Assembly (NCBI GenBank): GCA_964019165.1
Contig: OZ025270.1
Coordinates: forward strand, 11,689,150 to 11,753,149
Direction of reading: 5' to 3'
From: Mastigias papua
Taxonomy: Eukaryota > Cnidaria > Scyphozoa > Rhizostomeae > Mastigiidae
Length of the DNA: 64,000 nt
Shown: positions 2,148 to 44,300 of the stretch, in pieces
Numbering within the stretch: position 1 is the stretch's first letter
Layout of the letters: the number at the start of each line of letters is the position of its first letter
Made by a program: the position numbers and the translations under genes
The notes under the pieces: model-generated
Told to the model about the DNA's origin: nothing
The model's input: the letters and a program-made list of their open reading frames with translations, nothing else
Databases searched by the model: none

Positions 2148-2371
2148 TTACATGGCAGCGATCTGATTTTTGATCCAGGCATTTATATTTGCATTGGCTA
2201 TTTTTGCAAACACAGTATACCCTTTAGATGCGGAACATGTACCAGATCCCCAACTCACAGCCCCTTGAAGATACCACGCTCCATTCTTCTTGCAGACAAA
2301 TGGTCCGCCACTATCTCCATGACAACCACTCTGAATGGTGCCAGGCCCATTTCCAGCACAGATCATCCTGT
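2148..2371 (-). CDS. S1 protease 2, terminal exon c: catalytic Ser and stop
   Basis: A 224-nt exon, phase 1 in (AACAG acceptor at 2372), ending with TAA at 2150-2148. It encodes [20 protein letters not shown], then GGPFVC, then [20 protein letters not shown], and ends [13 protein letters not shown] before HGDSGGP puts Ser at position 189 and Gly at 190, as in pancreatic elastases. VSWGSxTCS recalls chymotrypsins. A small or hydrophobic P1 preference is therefore likely, unlike protease 1. Confidence 0.9.
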
Positions 2372-5300
2372 CTGTTATCTAGTGTTGAACACATAAATCC
2401 ATAAGTTGTAATATTCTTTATCACAAAGAAATTGTAGCGCATTAAGTAAAAGTAGTCCTTAATGGTCTAATGAATGTAGTTTTTGAAGTAGAACTGCTTG
2501 AAAGATTTTGTCGTTAGCAGTTACTTTCTTCCTGTGTGGCGATGCTTTCTTGGACATTACATTAAAATATATCGAGATGATGTTATCCAAATCACAAAAA
2601 GACTGCCATCGTTTAGGGAGACTTAATTAACATCTAAGGACAAATGACGCTCTCTGTTTCACTCTGTTTGGCTATGCCCATTAAATCTGATTCGTATGAA
2701 CATCATGTGAGTAAAAAACCACCTTATACGATGTAAATGATAAGAAGTCACCTTAAAATTACCACCACTTCAGAAGAAGTCTCCTCTACGGAATTCCCTC
2801 AAATAAGACTACCTTATAAGAAACCACAGCAAAAGAACACCTTGTATAGAAACATCCATATAGAATTCACTCTTAATGAAATCACCTAATGAGCTACCGC
2901 TCTATAAGAAATAATCTCATTAGAGTCCACCAAAGTAAGAAACTAACTGGTTAGAAAGTACTCTTATGGAAATTTTCTAAAGAAATGACGGATACTCTGG
3001 GAATTATAGGTGGGCACTCCGTGCTCTTAGCTTTAACAATTTGCTCGCAACTTGAGGAGTGGTCAGCGATTTGTTGAAACGGGTTAAGAATGAGTCCCAA
3101 TTCTTCGTAATCAAAATTCGAATATTCATCCGTTTCTACTTCATAGTTTTGATTGTGCAATTACTATGCATGATTTTGACTTAATTAACTGTCATGTAGA
3201 GAAGGGCTGTAGAAGAAGAGAGGCTCGGGCAGCTCAGCTCCCTTCTACTTTTCGAAAGGGGGCTGAGTCCCCTTTCTCTACTTTTTCTGGGTAATGTTTA
3301 TGTATGAATCAGGATAATAGAACTTTTTCTGTATAGAATCACATTACAGTCATTTTTCCCATAAGTACTAACATAACTCATTGTTCAACGAGTTTGCTAT
3401 ATAGTAATGGAGCAGAATGATGCTTTAAAGAGTACGAGCTTACGCTATACTTCATAGAAGTTACACGATGTTGCCTAGTGAGCGCTGATGCTCTCACACC
3501 ATACATTACATCCTAGTCAATAGAATTCGTTCCGTGCACTCTTGTCTAAATTAGTAAAGTTTTAATGTCAATGTATACTGGATAGGCAACTACAAGGAGA
3601 CACTTACGGATATTCCGAAGTTCTGAGTATTGGTCTGTCTGCAAGTCTGTTGTGACACGACCCGAATCTTGGCTTGTTGTAAAGTGTGATGCATGTTTCC
3701 AGGATGCTTTATCTTACCAAAACCTTTCACAACACAAGAAGTTTTTAGAGACTAATTTAGTATTACATATCACGGTAAAAATATCCGAGCAGGTGGAATG
3801 CAGTGCCATACTCAATTATATTATAGATACAACCTTTATGGCATAATATGTTTTAATGTAATGCAAAATGATAGAGTGTATTAGACAACTACGGGAAACA
3901 AAAACTAACGCACAGCATTGAAGTCTATTATTTCAATCTTTATCAATACCGTAAATGTATCCACATGACAATAATTCAAAATGAACCAGTTTACTTTCTC
4001 TGTGTGTGTGTGTGTGTGTGTGTGTGTGTGTGTGTGTGTGTGTGTGTGTGTGTGTGTGTGTGTGTGTGTGTGTGTGTGTGTGTGTGTGTCTGTGTGTGTG
4101 TGTGTGTGTGTGTGTGTGTGTGTGTGTGTGTGTGTGTGTCTGTGTGTGTGTGTGTGTGTGTGTGTGTGTGTGTGTGTGTGTGTGTGTCTGTGTGTGTGTG
4201 TGTGTGTGTGTGTGTGTGTGTCTGTGTGTGTGTGTGTATGTGTGTGTGTGTGTGTATATGTGTGTGTGTGTGTGTGTGTGTGTGTGTGTGTGTGTGTGTG
4301 TGTGTGTGTGTCTGTGTGTGTGTGTGTGTGTGTGTGTCTGTGTAGATAATCACTTAAAGTAAGTACAGGTCATTACAGAGCTGTAGATATGGGCATTTCA
4401 TAAAAACACCCGTTAATCAGTGTAAGAATGGGGGAGGTAATAATTTCGCATTGCCCCAACTCACGACTGCCAATTATTAAGCATCTCCCACAACTTGATG
4501 GATATCAGCACCAGGGCAGATGGATGGGTATAGCAACAAATAAACATTTTAGTCATACCTGTGATATAGCAGTCCGATCCGGCTGGTGGTTCCTCGTTAA
4601 CTGCTGGCAAACATGCAGTCTGCACATATTTTCCGAGTGTTGCAGGTGTACGTAGTTTCATAACAGCAATGTCATAGTCTATCGTCCTTCTGGAATATGA
4701 TGGGTGGGAAACAATCTTTGACACTGGTATATCTACCTCTGAACCTTCAGTAGTCCTCGTGTCGTACTCGCCAACCCTAGACGGAAGAAAACACAAATGG
4801 TTGAATTGCGCTATTAGTAAAATATATCCCTCTCTGGCGATTCGGTTCTCTCTCAAGAATAGAGTTAAATTGTCTTGACAAAATGTAGAAGTTATCAGGA
4901 CATTTTAAAAATTGACAAAGCATTAATCGAATTCAATGCATATCTTGCAACGCTTCATTTATACCAATAGCCCGATGATCATTAAAGATTGAGTAGAGCT
5001 GCATTATAAACCAAATATAAAAAGTACAGAGCAGTATCTTAGCTGAACAAAGATGGATGGTCATGCTCTACTTATCACGGAATATGTCCACGCCTTTTCA
5101 TCAAGACATGCCCTTCCAGCATGAAGAAATTCATCATACAAACCATTCCACTATGTGTCATTGAGTGTGCGAATGGGTGTGGACATCGATAATAAAAGCA
5201 CGGTGTGAAAAGTATATAGTTAGTGTACTAGAGGGAAGTAATTAAAGGAGACAGGCGACTTTGTTAAGATCTAGTTAAGTCACATACCTGACTTTGAACA

Positions 5301-41300: not shown

Positions 41301-44300
41301 TGTAAGAACTTTGCATCCGCCTGTCACGACATGTTGCTCACATAGACAGATGTATGTAGAAACATTATTTGCATTTCTGGGCCAACCAGGTAAGATTGGA
41401 AATTTTCCACAGCACACTAATGGGTCGCGATACAGTGGTTGGGAAACACTGTTTTGCAGAATAGCAAATTTCAGGACAACGCTTCACACAGAGATTTGAA
41501 TATGCTATAAAGTCAAATTCATCTTAGAAACTTCTCTTTATTTCTATCAGTCTTTTCCACGTGCATAGGGGAGCTGCAAACTGTCTGCACGAATGAATCA
41601 CCTGTTGCTTAAATGAGTTGTTTACCGAAATGAAGCCGCAGCTATTTTCGAGGATAACTATTGCTTTTTCTGAAGTAATTGCTCAAATGAAATGGATTAC
41701 TGCCCGACTGGGGGGCTGAGGCCTCCAATTCCCAGTCTACTACCCCCCACCTTCTACATCTATGGTCCTTTCTAAACACTTTGAATGGGATCTGTCAGAC
41801 AGGTTATGCCAAATACCTACTAGACTTCTTGCGGAAGATCCTCATTCTATTCAGTGAAAAAATAGTAGCCAGAGTCCTGGGATTCCTGTAAGGACCCATC
41901 TTGTGGGCTTTGATTTAGTTACACTTCAATTTTGGAAAATACACCCGACATTGGCTATCAGTAGAGTAACACTGCTGAAGAAGATACTACTAAATAACTA
42001 AAGAGCTGTAAATATGATAACATACCCAGAACCTTTAATAAATCTAATGTGATGTTCTTTAGTAGACTGTCGCTTCTGGAACCTTAAGCACGTTTTGGTA
42101 TGAAATTCTTTAATTGCCTGATCAATTACTGGAAGACTGCCGGAATCTTAAAAAGAAGAGGTTACATAGCATTTAGACGCCATACTGATCATTATTATGC
42201 ATCAAAATCCCTATCTTCCGACCCTGGTTTGCTCTTCTTTCATCTTTCGCTGCTTTATATCTACTATTAGTCTCTGTTCTCATCCAAACAACACACATAG
42301 TGAATTTATAGCCTGTAGTGAATATCAATCATGCCCTTAAGCGCGCGCACACACACACACACACACACACACACACACACACACACACACACACACACAC
42401 ACACACACACACACACACACACACACACACACACACACACACACACACACACACACACACACACACACACACAAAGACACACACACCGGAATAAAGGGGA
42501 CTATTCTAGTATTCAGCCTCGTTTTCATTTAGCAAAACCTGTTGGCTTCGGATTGTCTTTGCTTATTTAGCATCTCAAATTCGCATAATAAGCCCTTAGC
42601 TATAGATGATTCCCCATCAATTGCTTTCCTGTTATCAATTTCCATATTCAATTTCGATGCAGTTCCTAAGACATACAAATTAAGTAAAGGAGATGACTGC
42701 CTTTCATGACTATACTGGAATTATAAATCTGTACGATTTATTGACTTTCGTGGGTCAGAAAGTTCCAGTACTGAACTGTTTCAACTTTTTAAGCAGTCGA
42801 GTACTTCTCTCTTCCTATATCTTCATATACACCACATTAATATTCTTCATATACACCACATTAATATATATATATATATATATATATATATATATATATA
42901 TATATATATATATATATATATATATATATATATATATATATATATATATATATATATATATATATATATATAGATATATATATATATATGAAAAGTGAAA
43001 GTGCGAGAAAATAAGCGACCCGAGCGGGATTCGAACTCGCGACCCCTGACATTGTACGTCGGTGCTCTACCAACTGAGCTATCGGGCCACGCTTCCAAAT
43101 CGTTGCTCAAGGGTAGGTCATTTGCTCGCACCGCCCCTCTCTTAACCAATTTGCACAGAGGAGCCATCGCAGCTCCATCGCAATGTGAATTGGACCTGCT
43201 GTTGAGAGAGGACTGCTCAATATATATATAGATATATATATATATATATATATATATATATATATATATATATATATATATATATATATATATATATATA
43301 TATATATATATATATATATATATATATATATATATATATATATATATATATATATATATATATACATATATATATATATACATATATGTATACTCCCTTA
43401 TAGATATAGATATATATATATATATATATATATATACTCCCTTTTCGGAGCAAACTAGAGCATTTTCATTCTCAGAAAAATCAGAATTATTACATACTGT
43501 ATTTATAAATATTTAGTTGAAGATAACAATGACCCCAAATTTTCTGTTGTCCATATCTTATTTCATTGCAGAATGATAAGAAGTTACAGAATGATGGATG
43601 AAATATCTCAAAAGCTGATGGATTCCACTAATTTCAGCCAGACGACGAATGCCACTGATTTAAAAGGGAAAATTTGGTTTAAAATCAACTTACCGAGTGA
43701 TGCGCTCAATACATAAGGAATGACACGACTTCTCCACAATTTTCCTCTGTCTCTAAGGGCATTTCTCTTTTCGTTATCGTTACCGTTATCTCCGTCATCA
43801 GGCTTGATATCAGAATCGATAAGCCCTGTTGCATTATCAGCTAAAAGCATAATTTGTTCAATAAGGTTATAGTAGTATGGTTGCTATCTATTAACAGTCT
43901 TTTTGTAGATTATCTGGCTTAATAAGTATGCATATGAAACGAGAAAACATTGCAAATAGTTATATAATTCTATAGGAACATAAAAAGTAACTAGATACAG
44001 TGGAATTCCAATAAAGTGGACTCCGGCCTAATTACTATTATCATTATTAAATTCTTTAAAATTCATTGATACATTGCTTGTATAAATAAAACCAATTAAG
44101 ACCAACTATTTGCAAACTTACTGAAATGTGAAAAATAATGCTACGGAATAATTGGAAAAGAAGAATTAGTGGATGTAAACAGGATGTTATACTGCTTGCA
44201 AATGTGGCAGTTGCAATCATCTCGACTTGAACGCTTTATGCGTTTCTGACCGAGGTCACACTTTTAATATTCCTCTTAATGTAGTTCCATATGTTGCCGA

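Follow-up and report, generated by a model that had tools for sequence, protein, structure and literature searches.

Enteropeptidase is a membrane-anchored chain in which an S1 serine protease is combined with MAM and other modules, with one S1 domain in the chain. In cnidarians, the association of trypsin with astacin dates to the origin of the phylum, proteins with several trypsin domains occur in Nematostella and other species, and a trypsin-MAM clade is expanded in anthozoans, as described in the text of Babonis et al. (2019; PMC6767649). For helminths, a 2023 review of astacins (PMC9848320) points to members of the family that carry trypsin-like domains, and the abstract on polyserase-3 describes a polypeptide with more than one S1 domain (PMC1435904). 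Here, we analyzed a window of 64,000 nucleotides from the scyphozoan Mastigias papua (GenBank assembly GCA_964019165.1, contig OZ025270.1, positions 11,689,150 to 11,753,149 of the forward strand). The genome comprises 347 Mb in 172 contigs, and the contig carrying the window is called C5 below (C5:11689150-11753149). The minus strand at this locus carries, in order, a putative signal peptide, a propeptide, an astacin domain (M12A), a TSP1-like unit, a Pro/Thr linker, a first S1 domain (S1a), a linker, three MAM domains, a linker, and a second S1 domain (S1b). It is quite probable that these modules form a single functional gene for a secreted multi-protease zymogen of 1376 residues, which was built through the shuffling of exon modules of class 1-1 and belongs to a tandem array of three. 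We call the copy in the window gene 3 and the other two genes 2 and 1.

An initial annotation of this DNA had proposed that the exons between 43840 and 2148 join in frame with matching splice phases. We translated the minus strand and set the exon borders by splice signals and phase, taking the earlier junctions as candidates to be tested. This reconstruction arrived at a core of 24 exons, in which every intron is GT-AG, the phases are compatible, and the sole stop is at the end. The open frame from 43840 to 2148 has 1323 codons, the first of which is completed by an upstream exon. The four junctions between modules (36646/35423, 35253/34584, 28115/27092, and 10180/5486) were all recovered as GT-AG introns with phase 1 on both sides. 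As the annotation had stated, no stop closes the astacin or the first S1 domain, and Pro/Thr linkers connect the units (exons f, j, and m). Ahead of the astacin catalytic domain are a hydrophobic, signal-like ATG exon and a propeptide exon, which both join the downstream exons in phase 1 and extend gene 3 to 26 exons. The exons are as follows.

C5:11759269-11759188, minus strand: signal-like exon, located outside the window at a distance of about 6 kb (hydrophobic ATG exon, phase-1 donor)
49285..49362, minus strand: propeptide exon of 26 residues (phase 1 in and out; equal-length exon with AG/GT borders in genes 2 and 1)
43694..43840, minus strand: astacin exon a, with the propeptide end, the presumed activation site EKR↓NALRD, and the start of the catalytic domain (meprin beta alignment, RNSIIGEKYRW)
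42026..42146, minus strand: astacin exon b (located by eye; splice borders)
40201..40388, minus strand: astacin exon c, with a 12-residue motif (splice model, Pfam, genome profile search)
36646..36867, minus strand: astacin exon d, with the Met-turn MHYGAY (splice model, Pfam, genome profile search)
35253..35423, minus strand: TSP1-like exon e, with four cysteines and a 10-residue motif (splice model; PDB-sequence match; Pfam negative)
34243..34584, minus strand: exon f, Pro/Thr linker, S1a propeptide with a Cys1-type cysteine, PQH↓IVGG, and His57 (Pfam, enteropeptidase alignment)
33629..33870, minus strand: exon g, S1a Asp102 (Pfam, genome profile search)
31664..31762, minus strand: exon h, S1a Asp189, trypsin-like pocket (enteropeptidase alignment)
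28115..28262, minus strand: exon i, S1a Ser195, without a stop ahead of the donor (splice model, read-through)
27033..27092, minus strand: exon j, Pro/Thr linker (splice model; same length in gene 2)
26271..26408, minus strand: MAM1 exon A (splice model, Pfam)
25762..26015, minus strand: MAM1 exon B (splice model, Pfam, genome profile search)
25055..25136, minus strand: MAM1 exon C (splice model)
22381..22518, minus strand: MAM2 exon A (splice model, Pfam)
21870..22123, minus strand: MAM2 exon B (splice model, Pfam, genome profile search)
16731..16812, minus strand: MAM2 exon C (splice model)
14614..14751, minus strand: MAM3 exon A (splice model, Pfam)
14103..14356, minus strand: MAM3 exon B (splice model, Pfam, genome profile search)
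11265..11346, minus strand: MAM3 exon C (67-72% identity to the five remaining C exons in genes 2 and 3)
10180..10224, minus strand: exon m, Pro/Thr linker, absent from the gene 2 finds (splice model)
5288..5486, minus strand: exon n, S1b activation site GQR↓VIGG and His57 (alpha-chymotrypsin alignment)
4559..4776, minus strand: exon o, S1b Asp102 (alpha-chymotrypsin alignment)
3608..3723, minus strand: exon p, S1b (alpha-chymotrypsin alignment)
2148..2378, minus strand: exon q, S1b Ser189 and Ser195, chymotrypsin-like pocket, stop codon (alpha-chymotrypsin alignment)

Starts of exon c at 40462 or 40506 were dropped in favor of the true exon b (42146-42026) and a phase-2 border at 40388, which fit.

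The chain of gene 3 was compared with 258 kb of C5 by tblastn, and two further copies were found on the same contig and strand, giving the array of three paralogues. Of the 26 exons, 25 are present in gene 2 (C5 11659984 to 11569516), each of the same length as in gene 3; AG stands at 24/24 acceptors and GT at 24/24 donors, and the copy reads as 1361 residues with a single final stop. Because gene 2 repeats 25 equal-length exons in frame with AG/GT borders throughout, the exon join is more than chance. Linker m was not found in the gene 2 locus by tblastn or exon search; Pro/Thr-rich frames at 11575548 and 11574755 are at most candidates for a linker. Gene 1 (C5 11558363 to 11517406) is divergent, and 14 of the 26 exons were found: signal, propeptide, four astacin exons, the TSP1-like exon, three of four S1a exons, and four S1b exons. 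This locus, which partly reads N, yielded no MAM exons, no exon f, and no linkers. Its donors are GT in 13/13 cases and its acceptors AG in 13/13 after correction of an S1b border (12/13 before), and the four length differences from gene 3 exons are each a multiple of three. In gene 1, a distance of 1,869 bases separates the S1a donor from the S1b acceptor, and both are in phase 1. Its last S1b exon (C5:11517636-11517406) reads GDGGGP for GDSGGP, so that Ser195 is replaced by Gly and the nucleophile is lost. As the three copies differ in MAM content and one has lost an active site, the gain and loss of modules are traceable within one genome.

The ratio of nonsynonymous to synonymous substitution rates (dN/dS) was calculated by the Nei-Gojobori method, without a significance test, and is well below 1 in every domain. 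Between genes 3 and 2 it is 0.28 (1343 codons, dS 0.17), and between genes 3 and 1 it is 0.23 (743 codons, dS 0.86). By module, genes 3 and 2 give 0.53 for signal plus propeptide, 0.15 for astacin, 0.18 for the TSP1-like exon, 0.35 for exon f including its linker, 0.19 for the rest of S1a (exons g-i), 0.24-0.27 for the MAM domains, and 0.27 for S1b, whereas the short linker j gives 1.22, based on four changes. In exon f, the catalytic part has dN 0.020 and dS 0.092, and the Pro/Thr part has dN 0.092 and dS 0.067. These values per module suggest that the linkers drift as spacers while the domains are constrained. The corresponding ratios between genes 3 and 1 are 0.27 (signal plus propeptide), 0.22 (astacin), 0.41 (TSP1-like), 0.18 (exons g-i), and 0.24 (S1b); the last value is found despite the lost Ser195.

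The MAM units of gene 3 are about 91% identical to one another in DNA, which would fit an assembly artefact, with the MAM repeats collapsed or misjoined, or gene 2 a false duplicate (haplotig). Such an artefact is very improbable. Synonymous divergence is 0.17 between genes 3 and 2, whose alignable stretches are spaced differently, and 0.86 between genes 3 and 1. Gene 2 as a haplotype copy was disfavored, being too diverged from gene 3. Identity among the MAM B exons is 94.5-97.2% inside one gene and 86-89% from one gene to the other, some C exons keep a positional kinship (98.8% for MAM1 C of genes 2 and 3), and the A exons are mixed. This pattern, in which B exons group by gene and certain C exons by position, suggests that gene conversion has occurred in the arrays. 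The copy order of the MAM units in gene 2 differs from that in gene 3. A genome search with the MAM profile (at least 145 matches, 150 of 266 candidates scored) placed six A and six B exons near the C5 array, with gene 3 and gene 2 each accounting for three A and three B exons and gene 1 for none.

The domain assignments of the initial annotation were mostly borne out by a Pfam scan of the whole spliced chain (threshold E<=0.01). It returned Trypsin at 4.8e-133 in two stretches, MAM at 1.3e-105 in three stretches, and Astacin at 2.3e-63, and gave no match to TRAF or EGF. The astacin domain is complete as claimed, with HExxHxxGxxH followed by E and the Met-turn MHYGAY intact. Its closest solved structure is meprin beta (2e-45); the alignment begins at the R↓N of the presumed activation site, and EKR↓NALRD aligns with RNSIIG of meprin beta. 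The two S1 domains are different from each other, as had been proposed, and both triads are intact (GAAHC, IDNDIA, and GDSGGP in S1a; TAAHC, IDYDIA, and GDSGGP in S1b). S1a is closest to the enteropeptidase light chain (3.7e-59) and has Asp189, indicating a trypsin-like pocket, whereas S1b is closest to alpha-chymotrypsin (8.8e-46), has Ser189, indicating a chymotrypsin-like pocket, and ends with the stop. The residue numbers (His57, Asp102, Ser195, and 189) follow the numbering that we take to be that of the family. The TSP1 domain did not hold up. Exon e has four cysteines, no Pfam match at the threshold, and thrombospondin-1 as its best match among PDB sequences at E=0.017, and it showed neither the TSP1 family profile nor the usual cysteine pattern. 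These points weigh against the TSP1 label, and the exon is at best a degenerate, TSP1-like unit.

The annotation had read all these modules as one gene, which stands for the astacin, the two S1, and the three MAM domains and needs qualification for the degenerate TSP1-like unit. One gene is favored by the phase-matched splicing, by the shared order of the proteases in two paralogues, and by a dN/dS ratio under 1 for each domain, and from this we infer a single mRNA and one polypeptide spanning all modules. A single chain appears much the best reading of the locus. However, the intron between exons d and e, at the junction of the astacin and the TSP1-like unit, contains a conserved element that may bear on this.

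36290..36580, minus strand: conserved intronic block, astacin/TSP1-like junction (blastn identity to genes 2 and 1; function putative)

Over about 290 bases, the block shares 95% identity with gene 2 and 85% with gene 1; the latter value exceeds the 72-81% of those exons for which blastn gave an alignment with gene 1. It is probably noncoding, because it is conserved in several frames with stops included. A known RNA was rejected as its identity by the lack of an Rfam match. An acceptor with 36404 as its first base lies within the block, and exon d spliced to it reads LLYDCQSQ-stop in all three copies. The locus might therefore make several products, with an alternative terminal exon yielding an astacin-only protein that ends in DCQSQ and the long chain being a second isoform. 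The conservation of the block, its lack of an Rfam match, and the Ser-Gln-stop in three of three copies are consistent with this, but the acceptor scores 7.7 against a median of 8.8 for 25 real acceptors, an ordinary strength that 162 of 3783 intronic AGs reach. Also speaking against it, polyadenylation hexamers between the block and exon e number one in gene 3, one in gene 2, and none in gene 1. We regard such an isoform as possible, although rather unlikely.

Besides an astacin-only isoform, the block could mark a gene boundary, which is the less likely of the two. In the latter case, two or three adjacent genes (astacin; TSP1-like, S1a, and MAM; perhaps S1b) would have been duplicated as a block, which would also keep their order in the array. 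At 36381-36294, the block contains a signal-like ATG frame, which includes a hydrophobic stretch and a donor in phase 1 and is 90% identical in gene 2, as would suit the start of a second gene. However, its donor is missing in gene 1, and the conservation of the surrounding block is at the DNA level in several frames. Reading through the S1a donor gave tails of 11, 23, and 28 residues in the three genes; those of genes 3 and 2 are alike initially, as is usual for young introns, and that of gene 1 is different throughout. As the tails end differently, there is no common C-terminus after S1a. We scanned the gene copies for frames of this type (ATG, hydrophobic stretch, phase-1 donor) and compared the candidates. 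As a control, the scan recovered the signal exon of both gene 3 and gene 2; it gave no conserved signal-like exon before S1a (genes 3/2), MAM1 (3/2), or S1b (3/2, 3/1, and 2/1). In addition, the gap between exons e and f (35253 to 34584) is only 668 bases, the phase-1 borders are retained across the paralogues, and linker j is retained in gene 2. Separate adjacent genes are thus improbable.

Several observations weigh against the single multi-protease chain. Block duplication of separate neighbors would preserve the module order equally well, although the phases and the missing starts and stops speak against it. The control of the ATG-frame scan gave no conserved signal-exon pair in both comparisons with gene 1, so the scan is insensitive at that distance, and the e-f gap of gene 2 has one signal-like candidate that is not shared. 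The hexamers AATAAA and ATTAAA are absent within 748 bases past the stop in gene 3 and within 706 bases in gene 1; gene 2 has one polyadenylation hexamer about 620 bases past its stop. The conserved intronic block could end or start shorter transcripts. The loss of Ser195 in S1b of gene 1 suggests that a copy can do without a second active S1 unit, and a simple scheme of self-activation would be broken by the His that precedes IVGG in S1a.

The single chain would be made in secretory gland cells and may cleave matrix or take part in extracellular digestion, while the MAM domains would keep it in oligomers or attached to a matrix. The predicted activation sites of astacin (EKR↓NALRD) and S1b (GQR↓VIGG) are cut after Arg, and that of S1a in genes 3 and 2 is PQH↓IVGG. 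S1a could activate both the astacin and S1b, because its Asp189 trypsin pocket fits the two Arg sites. Less certainly, a relay may operate in which S1a cuts EKR↓NALRD, freeing the astacin N-terminus, and GQR↓VIGG, activating S1b. S1a itself would need a non-trypsin cut, because His precedes IVGG; this cut may come from S1b, with its Ser189 pocket, or from another enzyme. Cysteines placed like Cys1 and Cys122 of chymotrypsin in both S1 units could tether the parts after the cuts; for this numbering and the disulphide rule we presume that the pattern of the family applies. Mutual activation is offered as a testable proposal and not as a result. A self-contained cascade of this kind, in which S1a acts on the astacin and S1b, S1b or a partner acts on S1a, Cys1-Cys122 links hold the parts, and the conserved block sets whether the astacin alone or the whole chain is made, would be unlikely in its entirety. 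Proteolytic cascades normally run between separate proteins. If the proposal is true, two protease classes with three active sites, and Arg activation sites that suit one of the chain's own enzymes, would form a compact natural cascade, and the chain would be a good test case of how exon shuffling builds enzyme systems.

A second gene type of related organization was found on another contig, C10. Genome profile searches gave at least 108 astacin matches (150 of 157 candidates scored) and at least 146 S1 matches (150 of 151 scored). Among the matches listed, compared by eye, astacin and S1 lie within 100 kb on the same strand only in the C5 array and at 2.0 Mb of C10. The C10 gene (C10:2045999-2032208), read exon by exon without joining the whole chain, has an astacin, three ShK units, two Pro/Thr linker exons, and then an S1b-type, chymotrypsin-like protease. 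The ShK units are near-identical and about 1.3 kb apart. Together with the linkers they occupy five exons, all with AG/GT borders, lengths divisible by three, and phase 1-1. Pfam matched ShK (4.1e-11, one unit), Astacin (two exons), and Trypsin (one exon). Profile matches mark a further copy at C10:2027931-2006921. Like gene 3, this gene continues after the astacin with modules of class 1-1, linkers rich in Pro/Thr, and a protease of the S1b type; unlike gene 3, it has ShK in place of TSP1 and MAM, and one S1 only in the stretch read.

Compared with the described systems, gene 3 resembles meprins in the closest solved astacin domain, the aligned, presumed activation site, and the presence of MAM in the chain. 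In meprins, however, MAM and TRAF follow the astacin directly, whereas the order here is astacin, TSP1-like, S1a, and three MAM domains, so that MAM is not adjacent to the astacin; TRAF and EGF are without a match, and two S1 domains are added. The likeness to enteropeptidase is in S1a, whose closest solved relative it is, and in the pairing of S1 with MAM, but the MAM domains stand after S1a and an astacin before it. The two S1 domains within one spliced reading frame resemble polyserases, from which the chain differs by the added metalloprotease and by S1 units of differing predicted specificity; the polyserase abstract names serine protease domains only (PMC1435904). Astacin and trypsin domains in one spliced model recall the cnidarian trypsin-Astacin proteins. 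The Nematostella tryptome proteins likewise unite a metalloprotease with S1, several S1 domains, or MAM with S1 from exon-shuffled modules, although the text pairs trypsin with one other domain and the order of astacin, two S1, and three MAM is not met there (PMC6767649).

The initial annotation had called the architecture, to its knowledge, undescribed. An astacin with two S1 domains is indeed unnamed in the titles and abstract openings of the searched literature, a scope that leaves aside the figures and additional files of PMC6767649. The literature search returned no joined names such as 'astacin-trypsin', and the placozoan paper PMC11452194 has 0 occurrences of 'astacin domain', 'trypsin domain', and 'MAM domain'. 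Nevertheless, the claim of novelty seems too strong, because trypsin-Astacin, multi-trypsin, and trypsin-MAM proteins are reported from cnidarians in the text of PMC6767649 and the same genome has the astacin-ShK-S1 gene on C10. The predicted gene is a variant of a known cnidarian protease kind, real and well supported as one unit.

Other features lie in the introns of gene 3. A 184-codon frame within an S1a intron (window 31362-30811, minus strand) has no Pfam match at 0.01 and resembles what we take to be a reverse-transcriptase fragment. In the first intron, window 50928-50188 (minus strand) has frames that Pfam matches weakly to HTH_24 (5.1e-5) and to DDE_3 (1.1e-4, below the cut-off of that family); judging from the motif, they resemble a mariner-type transposase. 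The intron between exons a and b contains a tRNA match (Rfam RF00005, 50.1 bits) at window 43016-43088 (minus strand), near dinucleotide repeats.

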